Of a stretch of DNA of 53,973 nucleotides, positions 14,831-49,868 are shown piece by piece. The notes beneath the pieces were generated by a model. The model saw only the letters and a list, made by a program, of their open reading frames with translations, searched no databases and had not been told where the DNA came from. The stretch is from an uncultured Candidatus Saccharibacteria bacterium (GTDB lineage: Bacteria; Patescibacteriota; Saccharimonadia; Saccharimonadales; Saccharimonadaceae): positions 1-53,973 of the forward strand of contig CANENS010000010.1 in the NCBI GenBank assembly GCA_947428935.1. Direction: 5' to 3'. Both the position numbers and the translations under genes were made by a program. The stretch's first letter is position 1. Each line of letters opens with the position of its first letter.

Positions 14831-15172
14831 AGACTACAACACGTAATAACATAAGAAGTTTATCAGAAGCTGTTGGGCGGCTGGATTTCAGTTGATAATT
14901 CCAAAATTTAGAATAAGTTTTTTCTAATCTTCCGTAAGGAATCGTGCTTCTAAGAAGAATTATTTTCAAGTTATAATTCCCAAACACTTTCTGTGATTCT
15001 GTAAATGCTATTTTTTGCGCTACTAATTCTGTTTGAGAGTTTATAATTCTAAAAGACACTAATTTTAGCTTTATAATTCTAGAGCTTATTCCATAATTCT
15101 GAGACTAAGCAAACCGTTTTTATCTAGTTTTATAAATATAAAATCTTTAGATTCTGCTTCTGTTTTATTATT
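14831..15172. other. AT-rich intergenic stretch
   Basis: No convincing gene. The sequence contains several ATAATTC(T/C) words at irregular spacing (about 14894, 14977, 15041, 15070, 15092) and no start with a ribosome site. It leads into variable-repeat cassette A. Confidence 0.3.
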
Positions 15173-15372
15173 ACTGTCTATGCTCGAGCAGCGGAGGGGG
15201 AAGCCGTAGTAGCGATAGTGTCCGATGACGGACGAGACAACGTCAGATGCACCAAAGCGGAGACTGTACGCATAACGAAGATCAGAAGAATTAGCCCGGG
15301 ACGACCATCCGTAACCGTTGAGGCCAGAAAACTCCAAACGACCGCTATTGATGGTGATGAACCCGCTGCGAA
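15173..15372 (-). repeat. Orphan variable-repeat cassette A (FISUMP/C-lectin C-terminus)
   Basis: On the minus strand from TTCGCAGCGG (15372-15363) to CCGCTGC (15194-15188), it encodes about 60 residues: LRSG, SGRL, GYGWSSRANSSD, YGFPLRC. It ends in the SSID tail type (TCGAGCATAGACAG). No start codon with a ribosome site and no promoter is apparent, and nothing upstream encodes the rest of a FISUMP domain. Variable codons keep the third base C or T. Confidence 0.8.
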
Positions 15373-15603: not shown

Positions 15604-16212
15604 ATGTCAAAAATGACAAAAACCGTAGCTGCTTTGGGCGTAGTGGCTGGACTCGGTGTTGCGATGCTGCCTGTGGGTGCGTTCGCGGCTCCAGCCGACA
15701 CTGGTGCGGTCTATACCGGTCCGGCTACGCAGAATGTCACTTTTCAAGCGGCAGTTGATGATTATATCCAAATTACCGTGGCGGAAGCCCAAGTAGTAGC
15801 AGCGACTCCCGCCACTACTGCACAAAATGCGACTGGTAGTACGGGGCTCACAATCAAGTCTAATAGCACAAAAGGCTATACCGCTACGATCGCAGCTAAT
15901 ACCGGCGAGGTAAGAAACGAATCTGGTACTATCACCACTAATGGAACTGCTGACATGATCGGCACAAACGCTAATAACAAGATCCCTGGCGGAAAGGCTG
16001 TAACTCCTGGCACGAGCGCTTGGGGATATAAAATTGGCTCACTAACCGACATGGTGCCCGCTGCGACAACTGCGTCAACCTTTGCAGAGAAAACCACTGC
16101 AGCAGATGCGGATGGTGATTCATACACTTTGGAATTCGCAGCATCGGTCGATGCAAAGCAAGCAGCTGATACCTATACTGGTCAGGTTGTTATCACTGCG
16201 ACTGCAAAATAA
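15604..16212 (+). CDS. Secreted surface protein, WxL-like
   Basis: A 202-residue protein with a clear Sec signal peptide: basic N-terminus, hydrophobic core VVAGLGVAMLPV, cleavage after AFA. The mature part is Thr/Ala-rich with no cysteine and beta-rich, ending DTYTGQVVITATAK. This resembles the C-terminal strand of WxL domains, which bind peptidoglycan non-covalently, though the Trp-x-Leu motif itself is missing (there is a SAWGYKIG). The two next genes encode DUF916-like proteins, partners of WxL proteins in Firmicutes, which supports the comparison. It has its own strong promoter and terminator, so it may be an abundant envelope protein. Confidence 0.65.
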   Translation: MSKMTKTVAALGVVAGLGVAMLPVGAFAAPADTGAVYTGPATQNVTFQAAVDDYIQITVAEAQVVAATPATTAQNATGSTGLTIKSNSTKGYTATIAANTGEVRNESGTITTNGTADMIGTNANNKIPGGKAVTPGTSAWGYKIGSLTDMVPAATTASTFAEKTTAADADGDSYTLEFAASVDAKQAADTYTGQVVITATAK

Positions 16213-16231
16213 TTTTTGCAACAAGTCTTCG

Positions 16232-16262
16232 AAATATCACTCCTTCGGGGGTGATATTTTTT
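16232..16262 (+). terminator. Intrinsic terminator
   Basis: AATATCACTCC with a TTCG tetraloop and GGGGTGATATT, followed by a T run. It separates the abundant-looking surface protein from the downstream operon. Confidence 0.85.
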
Positions 16263-16294
16263 GGTCGAAGAAGGATTTTTTCTCTGTAAAATCC

Positions 16295-16323
16295 TTGAGT
16301 TTTTGCAACAACTTCGTTATAAT
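16295..16323 (+). promoter_or_regulatory. Promoter of the DUF916-like operon
   Basis: TTGAGT at 16295-16300, 17 nt, TATAAT at 16318-16323. AAAGGAGG follows just before the ATG at 16348. Confidence 0.6.
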
Positions 16324-16347
16324 GAAAAACAGTAATAAAGGAGGTAA

Positions 16348-17304
16348 ATGAAAATATTGAAGCGTTTTCGTAATTTGTTGGCGACATTTTTGTTAGCTTT
16401 CATATTTGCGATTAGTAATTCTAGCGGCTTTGCCATTGCGGCAGACGAAGCGAAGGCCGACCCGTATAACATGCGTGTTTCTCCGTCAAAAGCCGTAATT
16501 GAGGAAAAATTAGAGCCAGGAAATACTTATCACGGAAAGCTGAAGGTTAGTAACGATGGCACCAAGAAATTTAATTTCCAGGCTACTCCGACTTCCTATG
16601 CGGTTGACGGTGAGAGCTATACCCCGGTTTTCGACAAGGAAAATGATTATAACAAGATTCGTGAGTGGGTGACTTTGTCGCAAACGACCGGCGAGCTGCA
16701 ACCAGGCGAATCAACCGAGATTGAATATACAATCGAGGTCCCGAGTGACGCAAATGGTGGCGGCCAATATGCTGGTATTACCGTCCAGATGGTTCAAGAC
16801 AAGGAAAAAGAAGCCGAGAGCACAGGTTTTGATGTAACTAACCAGATCGGTTTCGTGATTTATGCCGAAGTTGATGGTGAGATCGAAAAGACTGGCTCGA
16901 TTGTCGACAACAAGATCTCTGGTTTCCGCTTTAGTCCGCCAATCAACGCAACCTCAGTAGTGGAGAATACTGGCAACACCCATTTTACTGCCAAATATAT
17001 TTTCAAGGTATTACCGTTCTTTGGCGATGAAGAGCTTTATACGAACGAGGAGAATCCGCAGACTGCGCTGATTCTGCCGGATACGCGCTATATGAATACT
17101 ATGACTTGGGAGGGGACGCCTTCAATCGGGATTTTCCGCGTGCACCAGACCGTGCAGCTAAATGACGAAAATAACACTCAGTCTACGGTGGAAAAGCTTG
17201 TGCTTGTTTGTCCGGCTTGGCTGGTTTTCGTGATTGCCTTGGTGCTCTTCGTGCTGATTTTCTGGATCGTAAGCCGAGTGCGTGGACGTAAGCATAAATC
17301 CTAA
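16348..17304 (+). CDS. DUF916-like cell-surface protein with C-terminal membrane anchor
   Basis: A 318-residue protein with a signal peptide (FLLAFIFAISNSSGFAIAA). Residues about 40-160 match the DUF916 (WxL peptidoglycan-binding) pattern: VSPSKAVIEEKLEPGNTYHGKLKVSNDG, then REWVTL, LQPGESTEIEYTIEVPSDANGGGQYAGI. A second beta domain (about 160-275) contains VVENTGNTHF. One membrane helix (about 288-310) and a basic tail follow. DUF916/DUF3324 proteins in Firmicutes bridge WxL proteins to the wall. AAAGGAGG decides the start. Its paralogue follows after 20 bp in the same operon. Confidence 0.75.
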   Translation: MKILKRFRNLLATFLLAFIFAISNSSGFAIAADEAKADPYNMRVSPSKAVIEEKLEPGNTYHGKLKVSNDGTKKFNFQATPTSYAVDGESYTPVFDKENDYNKIREWVTLSQTTGELQPGESTEIEYTIEVPSDANGGGQYAGITVQMVQDKEKEAESTGFDVTNQIGFVIYAEVDGEIEKTGSIVDNKISGFRFSPPINATSVVENTGNTHFTAKYIFKVLPFFGDEELYTNEENPQTALILPDTRYMNTMTWEGTPSIGIFRVHQTVQLNDENNTQSTVEKLVLVCPAWLVFVIALVLFVLIFWIVSRVRGRKHKS

Positions 17305-17324
17305 AGTGAAGAAGTGGAGGTGAA

Positions 17325-18335
17325 ATGAGAAAAAAATGGTTAAGAATCGTTGCGGCTTTCGGGCTAATGCTGGCTGGGGGGGCGAGCCTCCTCGGCTCTA
17401 GCACCGCGGTTTATGCCGACGAAAATACTCCGTCGACTTGGATTCAGCTCTCGCCGGCTGCTGCCACTGTTACTATGATGGGGGGAGATAGGCTCGAAGG
17501 GAAGCACGAGCGTTGTCCTGCCGGATCAGAATCGGAAGAGGGGGGCTGTCGTGTAGCAGTGAAAAATATCGGAAAAGAGAATTTTAGTTATAAGATTTAT
17601 ACTTCTCCATACGTTGTTTCCGGCTCGGACTATCAGCTCAACTTTTCGGAAGACGCTGCGACTTCGTATACGCAAATCGCACGTTGGATCACCTTTTTGG
17701 ACGATGACGGCAGTTATAAAAAGGAGATCACGAAAAATATTGCGCCAGGAGAGACTCAGGAGATCAACTATCGTATTACGGTTCCAGATGATGTCCCGGG
17801 AGGCGCACAATATGCAGTAATTTGGGCAGAAGTGACCAGTGCTGAGAGCGGGGCTAGCGTCCAGACTGCTCCGCGCACCGGCACGGTGGTTTCTGGCCGC
17901 TCGATTGGCGACACCGTTCAGAGTGCCGAGATTAGCGATTATCAGTTTCAGCGTTTCTCGATTGGTGGCTCTCTGACTGCGCACGCTATGATTAAAAATA
18001 CTGGTAACACTGACTTCGATGCCTATTATACCTATACCGCCAAAACTTTATTTGGGAAAGAAGTGCACGATCCAATCAAGGACACGATTGCAACTTACCC
18101 TGATACAGAATATCCTGTGGATGTAAAGTGGGAAGATGGTTTGCCCTTTTTTGGTTTGCTTCGAGTCCAATTTTCGGTTACAGCCGCTGATCAGGTGATT
18201 GACGAAACTCATTTGGTGCTGATTATGCCAGTTTTTGTGATAATTTTGCTAATTTTGTTGTTGACAGTCATTATTATCTGGATTATAATCATAAACAGAA
18301 AGCGCAAAGAGCGTAAAGCCCGCACTCTAGTATAA
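17325..18335 (+). CDS. DUF916-like cell-surface protein, paralogue of the preceding gene
   Basis: A 336-residue protein with the same plan as its neighbour: signal peptide ending VYADE, a DUF916-like domain (PGETQEINYRITVPDDVPGGAQYAVIWAE), a second beta domain with MIKNTGNTDFDAYY, and a C-terminal helix (VFVIILLILLLTVIIIWIIII) with a lysine/arginine-rich tail. It differs by an early loop with two cysteines (about residues 65-75) that may form a disulfide. GGAGG lies 6 nt before the ATG. The two genes are tandem duplicates and probably form a hetero-assembly on the outer face of the membrane. Confidence 0.75.
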   Translation: MRKKWLRIVAAFGLMLAGGASLLGSSTAVYADENTPSTWIQLSPAAATVTMMGGDRLEGKHERCPAGSESEEGGCRVAVKNIGKENFSYKIYTSPYVVSGSDYQLNFSEDAATSYTQIARWITFLDDDGSYKKEITKNIAPGETQEINYRITVPDDVPGGAQYAVIWAEVTSAESGASVQTAPRTGTVVSGRSIGDTVQSAEISDYQFQRFSIGGSLTAHAMIKNTGNTDFDAYYTYTAKTLFGKEVHDPIKDTIATYPDTEYPVDVKWEDGLPFFGLLRVQFSVTAADQVIDETHLVLIMPVFVIILLILLLTVIIIWIIIINRKRKERKARTLV

Positions 18336-18456
18336 AAAACAAAAATAAAAAGGGTGACGGTTACCATAATATCTTGCTTAAGCAGCTCGGTATTCTGCGA
18401 GATGGTATTCTAGCGCAATCGACATAAAAAGCTAAAACGAAAGAGCGAGTGTGCAT

Positions 18457-19440
18457 ATGAAACAAACACGAAAGCAATTTTTAGGTCTAGCGGGTCTGGC
18501 AGCTGTGATGGCCATGACGACGGCAGCGTTCGTATTGCCATCCACTGAAGTCGCAGCGGAAGACACGGGTAGCGTTAATTTTCGCGTTAGTGTTGGCGAA
18601 ATAACGACTAGCGCAAACTTTTCTAACCCGCAGGACGGTGCAGCCTTGACCGATCCAAATTTGCAAGTTAATATTAACTATAGTGAGGCTAGTCGGCTAC
18701 AATACATCTTGCACTACACCGATGCGAATGGTTCAACTCAAGAAGTGATTGTGCGTGATATCCAAACCGGTACAGTCTCGGGCAGCGACGAGTTCATTCT
18801 CGACCTTAGCCAGTACGGTTATGGTAAGTATAGCCTGACGGTACGTGCTTACAAAGATAATTCGGCCACCGGCGCATATCACGAAGATACCGTAAACTTT
18901 ACTTATGGCGCGATCAATATTCCGCCGGAAGACAACGCAGTTAGTTTTGTCCAGGGTGAAAACCCAGTGATTCGCGCTGAAATCTCAGACAATGTAGATA
19001 AGGTGCAAGTGCAAGTTTACGACAAGAGTGGTAAAGCCATGTTTGTTGATGCTAGTGGTAAAGAAAGCCCGTTGTTAGTTGATCGTGGCCATATTGATCC
19101 TAGTACCGGCCAGCTTTTAGTAGAGCTGCCGTTCATAGAATATGGTATTGCTCCAGGTGATTATACTACGGTGCTCGCAGCCTATGACCGTGATGGCAAA
19201 TTTCTCGACATGGCCACCTACAACTTCAGCTATGTCACGGAATCAGTTGATCCGAATCATTCAGACCAATCAGGTCAACCCGGCACAGTGACACCAAACA
19301 CGCCGAATACTGGCTCAACCAAAGAAGGCCTAACGCTTTCTCGCATTGATTACTTCCTGACCGGCTTGATGGTTTTCGCGGCAGTGTCTGGATTTGCCTG
19401 CTTTATGATTTACCGCCACAAACGAACGTTACGAAAGTAA
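18457..19440 (+). CDS. Sortase-signal-like surface protein
   Basis: A protein of about 327 residues with a signal peptide (LAGLAAVMAMTTAAFVLPSTEVAA), two or three beta-sandwich-like repeats (residues about 45-255, each with an Ala/Tyr-rich last strand) and a Pro/Thr/Asn linker. It ends NTPNTGS, a hydrophobic helix, then RHKRTLRK. That order (xPxTG-like motif, helix, positive tail) is a sortase sorting signal, though TPNTG is not canonical LPXTG. Start choice: GTG at 18451 or ATG at 18457, with no clear ribosome site; I chose the ATG. With the WxL-like and DUF916-like genes upstream it resembles the Firmicutes WxL loci, where an LPXTG protein is also present. Confidence 0.65.
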   Translation: MKQTRKQFLGLAGLAAVMAMTTAAFVLPSTEVAAEDTGSVNFRVSVGEITTSANFSNPQDGAALTDPNLQVNINYSEASRLQYILHYTDANGSTQEVIVRDIQTGTVSGSDEFILDLSQYGYGKYSLTVRAYKDNSATGAYHEDTVNFTYGAINIPPEDNAVSFVQGENPVIRAEISDNVDKVQVQVYDKSGKAMFVDASGKESPLLVDRGHIDPSTGQLLVELPFIEYGIAPGDYTTVLAAYDRDGKFLDMATYNFSYVTESVDPNHSDQSGQPGTVTPNTPNTGSTKEGLTLSRIDYFLTGLMVFAAVSGFACFMIYRHKRTLRK

Positions 19441-22424: not shown

Positions 22425-22443
22425 AGAGTTTCTTATTGACTAG

Positions 22444-22646
22444 TTCGCAGCGGAGATGTCCATATCGGTCGCGGTCGTTTGTGGCACTCTGGCATCGGCG
22501 GTTACGGATGGTCGTCCCGGGCTACTTCTTCTGATCTTCGTTATGTATACTTCCTTTTCTTCAATGCGTCTGCCGTCACCCCGTCCAACGACGATAACGC
22601 TCGCTGGGTCGCCTTCCCCCTCCGCTGCTCGAGCATAGGCGGTAAC
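22444..22646 (+). repeat. Orphan variable-repeat cassette B (only plus-strand copy)
   Basis: It runs from TTCGCAGCGG (22444) to CCGCTGC (22628) and then TCGAGCATA. It encodes VRSGDVHI, GRGRLW, GIGGYGWSSRATSSD, RWVAFPLRC and the SSI-type tail. It sits 20 bp after the DUF2752 gene, in the opposite orientation to all other copies. No start codon is in frame immediately upstream. Confidence 0.8.
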
Positions 22647-23284: not shown

Positions 23285-23479
23285 ACTGTCTAGCTAGGCA
23301 GCGGAGGGGGAAGCCGCGCCAGCGATAGTAGTCGTAGGACGGGTTGACGCCAGACGCACTGAAGCTGAAGCTGTATGCAGAACGAACATCAGAAGAATTA
23401 GCCTTAGGCGACCATCCGAACCCGCCGATGCCAGAGTCCCACAAACGACCGTAATTGATATTGACGTCTCCGCTGCGAA
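23285..23479 (-). repeat. Orphan variable-repeat cassette C
   Basis: Minus strand, TTCGCAGCGG at 23479-23470 to CCGCTGC at 23304-23298. It encodes VRSGDVNINYGRLW, GIGGFGWS, SYDYYRWRGFPLRC and the LARQ tail type. It lies between the divergent promoters of the holin-like gene and the thioredoxin-like gene. An open frame extends upstream to a GTG at 23531, but that overlaps the neighbour's promoter region and has no ribosome site. Confidence 0.8.
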
Positions 23480-23562
23480 CGTTACCTAGATCAGATCTTA
23501 AGTGATTAAAGTTCCGCAAAATTTCTTCCACCGAAGAACCTAAGGTGTGCTATAATCAAACT

Positions 23563-27152: not shown

Positions 27153-27350
27153 ACTGTCTAGCTAGGCAGCGGAGGGGGAAGGCGTTCCAGCGACTGTAGT
27201 AGTAGTAGGACGGGTAGACGCCAGACGCATTGAAGTGGAGGTCGTATGCTCGAGTGACATCAGAAGGATAAGTCCGTGACGACCATCCGTAGCCGTTGAC
27301 GCCAGAGCCCCACAAACGACCGCTATCGATATAGACGGCTCCGCTGCGAA
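27153..27350 (-). repeat. Orphan variable-repeat cassette D
   Basis: Minus strand, TTCGCAGCGG (27350-27341) to CCGCTGC (27172-27166) and CTAGCTAGACAGTAA. It encodes VRSGAVYIDSGRLW, GVNGYGWSSR, SYYYYSRWNAFPLRC and the LARQ tail followed by a stop. Four TAC codons in a row in the loop are what AAC codons hit at the first base would give. No upstream gene body exists. Confidence 0.85.
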
Positions 27351-27420
27351 CGTGTTAAAAATGCCTTTAGCTATAACTAAATTCTTCGCAAAGCGGCTTT
27401 TGTGGTAAAATATAGACAGC

Positions 27421-33524: not shown

Positions 33525-33718
33525 TTGTCTAGCTAGGCAGCGGAGGGGGAGGGCGAAGTGACGATGAAACCCACCAGACGGATGAGCAACAATATCAAAA
33601 TATAATTAATATGCAAAATTGACATCGGATGCGTGAGGATTTGATGACCAGCTAAAGCCAACGGAACCAAAATCTCTTAAAGGATTCTTTTCATCAACGC
33701 TAATACGCCCGCTGCGAC
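33525..33718 (-). repeat. Orphan variable-repeat cassette E (degenerate, in-frame stop)
   Basis: Minus strand, CGCAGCGG side at 33717-33709 to CCGCTGC at 33543-33537, LARQ tail. The frame reads RRSGRISVDE, GFSWSSNPHASDV, AY, then TAA, then ALPLRCLARQ. The TAA falls at a variable codon. It is the most diverged copy and cannot be translated through, so at least this copy is silent. Confidence 0.7.
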
Positions 33719-37406: not shown

Positions 37407-37597
37407 ACTGTCTATGCTCGAGCAGCGGAGAGGGAAGGCGTTATGTTTGCCATAGCCCCAAGAGGACGCAACTGTTGTATCAACGATATGCAAACGATAC
37501 GCTACGCCAATATCCCTACTTCTGGATGACCATAGGTAGCCACCATTTCCTACTCCCCACATCGCTCCGTCTCCAATATCGATGTACCCGCTGCGAA
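37407..37597 (-). repeat. Orphan variable-repeat cassette F
   Basis: Minus strand, TTCGCAGCGG (37597-37588) to CCGCTGC (37428-37422), tail type SSIDSNN (TCGAGCATAGACAGTAAT). It encodes LRSGYIDIGDG, GGYLWSSRS, AYRLHI and NAFPLRC. It is about two codons shorter and more diverged than A-D, G and H. It is the paralogous block of D, sharing the downstream hairpin and promoter element. Confidence 0.75.
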
Positions 37598-48035: not shown

Positions 48036-48230
48036 GCTGTCTAACTAGGCAGCGGAGGGGGAAGCCGTACCAGCGATTGCCGTAGTAGCTGGACGGGTAG
48101 ACGCCAGACGCATCGAAGCGGAGGCCGTATGCATCACGAACATCAGCAATAGCCCGGGACGACCATCCGTCGCCGACGACGCCAGAATACCCTAAACGGC
48201 CGTTATTGATATTGATCAACCCGCTGCGAA
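48036..48230 (-). repeat. Orphan variable-repeat cassette G
   Basis: Minus strand, TTCGCAGCGG (48230-48221) to CCGCTGC (48055-48049), tail LVRQ (CTAGTTAGACAG). It encodes IRSGLININNGRL, GVVGDGWSSRA, SSYYGNRWYGFPLRC. It lies between the pilin gene and tRNA-Glu. An open frame reaches upstream to 48318 without a promoter or ribosome site. Confidence 0.85.
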
Positions 48231-48445
48231 TCCTATACTTGTCAATACTTTTTTGCGAATTCTGCGACAAGCCGGCCAAGATTATTAAGCGATTTATTAT
48301 ATTCTGACCAATTAACAATCTTTTTAGTGGTATAATGTTTTTTGAGCAGCGTTTCTGTCTGTTTTGTTATTCATACTATAAGTAAGCATAACACTACTCT
48401 TTTTATTCGGGGATTATACGACAAGACCTTCAGGATAAGAAAGTA

Positions 48446-49330: not shown

Positions 49331-49525
49331 ACTGTCTAGCTAGGCAGCGGAGGGAGAAGCCGTACCAGCGATTGATGCCGTTGGACGGGTGGACGCTAGA
49401 CGCATTGAAGCCGAGGCCGTATGCATAATAGATATCAGACGAATTGCTGCGCGACGACCACCCGTAACCGTCGATACCAGAGCTCCTCAAACGACCGTTA
49501 TCGATATAGACGCTCCCGCTGCGAA
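49331..49525 (-). repeat. Orphan variable-repeat cassette H
   Basis: Minus strand, TTCGCAGCGG (49525-49516) to CCGCTGC (49350-49344), tail LARQ then a TAA stop. It encodes VRSGSVYIDNGRL, GIDGYGWSSRSNSSD, AYGLGFNASS, NRWYGFSLRC. It keeps many AAC/AAT codons and reads close to the family consensus. It lies between tRNA-Gly and the stomatin-like gene. Confidence 0.85.
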
Positions 49526-49868
49526 CGCACAAGGAAGCGAGAAAGATAAAAAGTTCTTTTCTATCTTACGAGCTGACGCAGTGCGTAATACGAAAACATA
49601 AAAGACTAGGAGATGAGAGAAAAGAAAGTAAACTTTCTTTTCCGCATAGACGATTGTTTTTCTATATTTTTCTTTCAGAAAATCTAGAACGAAGAAGTGG
49701 GTGCAAGACGGCAGATGTTTTGCACTGCAGTAAAGATGTGCTACATCTGGCGAAATAATGATGTGTAGCCACTCTACCACGCCAACATTAACTCGGCAAA
49801 ATCCTATTGTCACATATTCTTCGGCATGATAAGATGAAGAAAATGTTAAGAGTCGTATGGAGTAGCCT
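49526..49868. other. Intergenic stretch upstream of the stomatin-like gene
   Basis: No gene is convincing. Short plus- and minus-strand frames lack ribosome sites. A possible box GATAAGAT near 49830 precedes the gene at 49869. Confidence 0.3.

Follow-up and report, generated by a model that had tools for sequence, protein, structure and literature searches.

The closest described systems are BPP-1-type DGRs, with FISUMP or C-type-lectin targets and including CPR DGRs, and silent-cassette systems of the msp2/p44, vls and pilS type. A BPP-1-type DGR has a reverse transcriptase and an accessory ORF, an AAC-rich template-like copy, adenine-specific changes, an IMH that differs from IMH* and a variable repeat at the C-terminus of its target. 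In a silent-cassette system, one or a few complete expressed genes stand beside numerous silent partial copies, and the variable segment of such a gene is identical to a differently flanked silent copy. In Anaplasma phagocytophilum, ~100 silent 'functional pseudogenes' of msp2/p44 feed one expression site, and the RecF pathway exchanges the cassettes by gene conversion (PMC11946796). Among the DGRs with multiple variable repeats collected by MetaCSST, one template serves many repeats; the most repetitive example, located inside a single giant adhesin gene, has few A-to-N changes (PMC6642488). The DGRs of Thiohalocapsa PB-PSB1, which possibly act in trans, have remote targets without their own reverse transcriptase or template; these targets are genes, and a silent archive is absent there (PMC10907252). 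Surveys point out that fragmented data cause remote DGR targets to be overlooked (PMC8144416). Our searches of open-access papers, an incomplete collection, covered DGRs together with Saccharibacteria, silent cassettes or antigenic variation and found no account of a system that combines a DGR with a silent archive.

We compare these systems with the genome of an uncultured Candidatus Saccharibacteria bacterium (GCA_947428935.1; 1.10 Mb in 27 contigs) and, within it, with the window, a 53,973-nucleotide stretch of one contig that was analysed as a whole. The BPP-1-type traits named above recur in this genome, the accessory ORF in the form of a candidate. Unlike BPP-1-type DGRs, it has ~140 variable repeats, nearly all of them outside genes, it shares whole cassettes with the expression locus without mutagenesis, and no foldable stem-loop was found after the IMH. 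The traits of the silent-cassette systems recur as well; it resembles msp2/p44 in particular by its many silent copies, its single main expression site, the apparent replacement of entire cassettes and the mosaic silent copies, all read here from assemblies, whereas its cassettes are only ~183 bp long, have ~14 bp of left homology and would be renewed by a reverse transcriptase. The multi-repeat DGRs of MetaCSST resemble it in the ratio of one template to many repeats, but its repeats are dispersed, intergenic and adenine-mutated; the remote targets of Thiohalocapsa likewise have a counterpart here. We propose, with a probability of about 0.8, a two-layer diversification in which a DGR and an archive of silent cassettes would be joined by an exchange of cassettes with one expression locus. 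Two ways of diversifying a protein, each known until now only on its own, appear to be united in this tiny bacterium.

The window contains eight ~183-bp cassettes that run from GCAGCGG to CCGCTGC and continue into tails of two types. All eight are orphans, a word that we use, like 'silent', for a cassette that no gene precedes, as judged from its sequence. Cassette A (15188-15372, with its tail 15167..15372, minus strand) has a TCGAGCATAGACAGTAATAAT tail and no upstream ORF; a partial copy of it, 97% identical, lies at C2:2-140 beside an unrelated left flank. Tails of the CTAGCTAG type follow cassettes C (23298-23480, tail from 23277), D (27166-27351, tail from 27145), E (33537-33718, tail from 33516) and H (49344-49526, tail from 49323), all on the minus strand. 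The right flank of D is common to several other orphans, E is diverged and contains one internal stop, and H is a mosaic with C2:96636-96815. TCGAG-type tails follow cassette B (22443-22628, with its tail to 22650, plus strand) and the diverged cassette F (37422-37597, tail from 37401, minus strand), while cassette G (48049-48231, tail from 48028, minus strand) ends in a CTAGTTAG tail. The right flank of cassette A (14846-15165) has a 100% identical duplicate of ~320 bp at C3:48-367, the start of that contig, where an AGCAGA repeat precedes it in place of the cassette tail. Also beside cassette A, 15604-19440 contains several consecutive ORFs whose products appear to have signal peptides and membrane anchors, a putative surface-protein operon.

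The same sequences recur throughout the genome. The motif CTTCCCCCTCCGCTGC with at most three mismatches matches the window 11 times (0.17 expected), and CCCCCTCCGCTGC with at most one mismatch has 139 genome-wide matches, compared to 2 for the reversed control. Three unselected contigs (C1, C4 and the window; 282.5 kb) carry 14-15 cassettes per 100 kb, and 37 of their 39 cassettes are intergenic even though ORFs occupy 80% of the DNA there. A phage origin of the cassettes was dropped, as a phage collection contained no match to them.

A preliminary description of the window held that the cassettes are bounded by 7-bp inverted repeats and end in two alternative palindromic tails, and that two tails imply at least two sources or templates. 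Its account of the ends is accurate for this genome. Across 103 near-complete cassettes, GCAGCGG is exact in 97, CCGCTGC in 89 and both in 83; the tails comprise 66 of the CTAGCTAG type, 20 of the TCGAG type, 2 of a third type and a remainder that is variant or broken; and the two main types affect the reading frame as claimed (LRC-LARQ-stop versus LRC-SSIDS... without a stop). Ends that vary freely, which the description itself named as its refutation, were not seen among the copies of this genome. When 100 complete copies are compared, the left edge is (T)TCGCAGCGGG, with almost no information from two bases upstream, and the right edge is CTTCCCCCTCCGCTGC plus the tail, with similarity that fades over ~24 nt; some subsets of copies have longer right flanks in common or form tandem arrays. 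The unrelated left flanks of these 100 copies rule out that orphans are remnants of decayed genes.

The roles assigned to these ends are not supported. The inverted repeat, checked there for conservation beyond coding need, is exact only in the analysed genome and in G040, and is mismatched in G043 (GTAGCGG/CCGTTGT), G024 (GTAGCGG/CCGCTGT), G137 (GTAGTGG/CCGCTGC) and G013 (CGTGGCGG/CCGGTGC). These four genomes keep the starting residues RSG or RGG and the final residues LRC, IRC or VRC by means of other codons; the inverted repeat reads as a coincidence of coding. The relatives have no palindrome in common, and seven tails folded no better than their shuffled versions, and no stem-loop just 3′ of the IMH was found in them. 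Tail type is independent of the cassette body: nearest neighbours agree in tail in 56 of 87 cases, compared to 52.6 +/- 5.2 after shuffling (p = 0.30), near-identical bodies are found with different tails, and both tail types have an equal adenine bias against one and the same template copy. Given this independence and equal bias, tail type appears to go with the target site and not with the source or with two templates. A mobile cassette bounded by inverted repeats, hairpin tails and separate sources for the two tails were all dropped for these reasons.

A further suggestion, that the GC-rich 3′ end resembles the IMH of DGR variable repeats, was borne out, as a reverse transcriptase, a template-like copy and adenine-specific substitutions were all found. 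The reverse transcriptase is an intact ORF (C2:96885-98027, minus strand) containing YVDD and IGNLTSQ. It escaped a genome-wide search with the Pfam RVT_1 model, and the conclusion drawn from that search, that there is no reverse transcriptase and so no DGR, was overturned when a protein query from a relative found the ORF (70% identity, E = 8.5e-195). Its best match among solved structures is 8ub7_A (E = 1.7e-22), which we take to be the DGR enzyme of Bordetella phage BPP-1, and its named relatives belong to uncultured Candidatus Saccharibacteria and to Candidatus Nanosyncoccus alces. A candidate accessory ORF of 351 aa adjoins it upstream (region C2:96.9-99.1 kb), and ORFs of 338-358 aa lie directly upstream of the reverse transcriptase in this genome (G000), G043 and G013. 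The accessory ORF matched no family in Pfam and PHROGs (searched for G043) or in NCBIfam (searched for G000).

Nearly every variable codon of the template-like copy (C3:7334-7513) is AAC, as expected for a DGR template repeat, and its tail is a different one. At base 169, inside the GC-rich 3′ end, it has T, versus C in 59 of the 62 aligned cassettes listed, a difference that parallels the one between IMH* and IMH. The sequence GGTGCCGATCTT follows template copies in G043, G137, G040 and G024 and is missing after this one; a search of the analysed genome for a template copy of the GGTGCCGATCTT type yielded only one unrelated coding site. Since the copy is both remote from the reverse transcriptase and without GGTGCCGATCTT, it may be a relic or just one template among others. 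The stem-loop is known from BPP-1 but is not strictly required even in that system (PMC12875486), and we do not treat it as a defining trait of DGRs. The surroundings of the template-like copy (region L040:1446-16456) are type IV pilus genes, named by eye from their translations as prepilin and PilB/PilT/PilC-like, and a hairpin resembling an intrinsic terminator follows the copy.

Differences between cassettes and the template copy are concentrated at adenines. In the 27 copies with at least 80% identity to it, 521 of 1214 A (43%) differ, compared to 297 of 3643 non-A (8%; p = 2e-151), and the copies nearest to it are changed at 15-24 of 45 adenines and at only 5-6 of 135 other bases. Similar values were obtained for G043 (47% of A versus 8% of non-A, p ~1e-51) and for G013, where the changes in three cassettes relative to the template copy fall on 13, 13 and 16 of its 50 A, and on 0 of its 128 non-A (p ~1e-21). 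When one template copy of G040 was compared with two other template-type copies of that genome, the adenine bias was not significant. Judged by these substitution patterns, the cassettes are variable repeats of a DGR. Direct insertion of template cDNA as the origin of the orphans was ruled out; their VR-type tail and C169 differ from the template copy.

Only one of the 103 near-complete cassettes continues a long ORF, and the median upstream open frame is 10.5 codons. This cassette forms the C-terminus of a 578-codon FISUMP protein (C2:77865-79598) encoded downstream of infB, a gene identified from sequence as IF-2; the FISUMP gene adjoins infB also in G043 and G040. The FISUMP assignment rests on NCBIfam TIGR02145, which scored above its cut-off, and the AlphaFold model of the protein is poor (pLDDT 46). 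The orphans have nevertheless retained open frames. Using a simple null model that takes the template copy as ancestor and places random bases at the same changed positions, stops were expected in 48 of 86 orphans and observed in 2; for diverged orphans, they were expected in 35 of 40 and observed in 1. In addition, 83 of 87 cassette lengths are multiples of 3. Retention of an open frame outside any gene indicates that cassettes pass through an expressed gene. Some longer silent copies (L166, L034, L164, L165 and L156) contain, besides the cassette, ~140-165 bp from the constant region of the expression gene and begin at a common point, GGCAACTRCCTACC.

We now turn to the sequences that the putative expression locus and the orphans have in common. 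The gene-borne cassette (C2:79411-79584) is identical to the orphan C4:11269-11442 over ~200 bp; the identity ends 4 bp to the left and 21 bp to the right of the cassette, the flanks beyond are unrelated, and the cassette itself shares only 50% identity with the template copy. The homologous gene of G024 (620 aa) carries a cassette that equals an orphan on C19 over 212 bp, from TTCGTCCGTAGCGG into the tail. As the shared copies are identical at adenines too, the exchange step is not a mutagenic reverse transcription. At C11:27.9-28.2 kb, flanks identical to those of the expression locus (~141 bp on the left, 315 bp on the right) surround another cassette, one that matches the orphan C2:30781-30960, and at C26:6859 another cassette is followed by 127 bp of the locus's right flank; from their arrangement, both resemble earlier states of the expression locus that have been stored. 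There are also mosaics among orphans, in which bodies can be common to different tails. Conserved sequence around the cassettes extends for ~14 bp on the left and ~35 bp on the right, and the left-hand homology would be short for a RecA-type conversion. No dedicated recombinase for cassette exchange was identified. Exact sharing by itself gives no direction of exchange.

The relatives have the same anatomy, each with its own cassette family and template copies. Template copies adjoin the reverse transcriptase in G043, G137 and G013, and were also found in G040. There are 12 GGTGCCGATCTT sites in G040 and 5 in G024, preceded by a template-type repeat in the copies that were read. Many template-type repeats occur in these two genomes (L168-L179), some with adenines already lost, which suggests that the templates themselves may diversify. 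G030 has 47 cassette-family matches, and neither the Pfam model nor the protein query found a reverse transcriptase in it. An N-terminal search of G104 returned 23 matches to the FISUMP target protein, an observation that suggests a multigene arrangement there and not a single expression site. The close relatives are MAGs, all assemblies are fragmented, and the nearest relative, at ~79% DNA identity, is too distant for a base-level comparison of empty sites.

Could a DGR with very many remote targets account for these data by itself, with the orphans as useless by-products of duplication and the archive unused? Multi-target DGRs are known (PMC6642488; PMC10907252, with targets possibly in trans), and orphan differences that are confined to adenines are what such a system would produce. 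It does not account for identical cassettes, dissimilar to the template, at the expression locus and in an orphan of two species, for open frames in orphans that diverge by as much as 50% from the template copy or for the mosaic bodies, and we consider it unlikely. Dispersed intergenic copies with a sharp left edge and a variable right edge, as seen here, would also fit a mobile element (MITE-like or rolling-circle) that spreads selfishly and happens to take the gene's 3′ end from one intergenic site to another; yet no terminal inverted repeat is conserved across species, the tails do not fold, the cassettes keep their reading frame and the template-to-copy changes are adenine-specific. We regard such an element as highly improbable.

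Assembly artefacts or strain mixing might also place one cassette at two sites, and fragmentation lends this some plausibility, several contigs ending at or just before cassettes. The gene-borne and orphan copies of the analysed genome are, however, both internal to their contigs, and the ~14 bp shared at the left edge is shorter than the usual assembly k-mers; together with the agreement of two species, this short edge makes an artefact a slightly poorer explanation still than a selfish element. Least probable of all is the model of the preliminary description, with two templates and with cassettes that are delimited by 7-bp inverted repeats and palindromic tails. It is true of the sequence of this genome, and the inverted repeat is also present in G040, but the relatives, the unfoldable tails and the independence of tail and body contradict it.

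In the two-layer system that we favour, the reverse transcriptase and the accessory ORF would copy the AAC-rich template repeat at C3:7334-7513, and the adenine-mutagenised cDNA would be written into variable repeats that end in the GC-rich IMH CTTCCCCCTCCGCTGC. The ~140 promoterless cassettes of ~183 bp between genes would constitute the second layer, an archive. Whole cassettes would be swapped without mutation between this archive and the locus of the secreted FISUMP surface protein, and the cell would display stored variants while the DGR makes new ones. Exchange would proceed from silent to expressed in switching and from expressed to silent in archiving; direct retrohoming into orphans, the participation of recombination enzymes and a function at the cell surface are likewise presumed. 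With appreciably less confidence than in the two layers themselves, we lean towards a stronger version, in which the DGR would continuously mutate the genome-wide silent library and any cassette could be installed unchanged into the one expressed surface protein. The making of variants would then be separated from their display, and an ultra-small episymbiont lineage would possess a memory of them that can be inherited. The DGR could instead act solely at the expression locus, with the orphans as archived copies.

DGRs are thought to overwrite their variable repeat in place, and a good variant is consequently lost at the next event. With a silent archive that draws its novelty from an error-prone reverse transcriptase, cells could test variants, retain them and bring them back, in the way that pathogens evading immunity do through gene conversion. 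An archive would explain why a reduced Saccharibacteria genome spends ~2.6% of its DNA on intergenic repeats (139 x ~205 bp of 1.10 Mb). It would also open a testable route to the question of how episymbionts might adjust when the surfaces of their hosts change.
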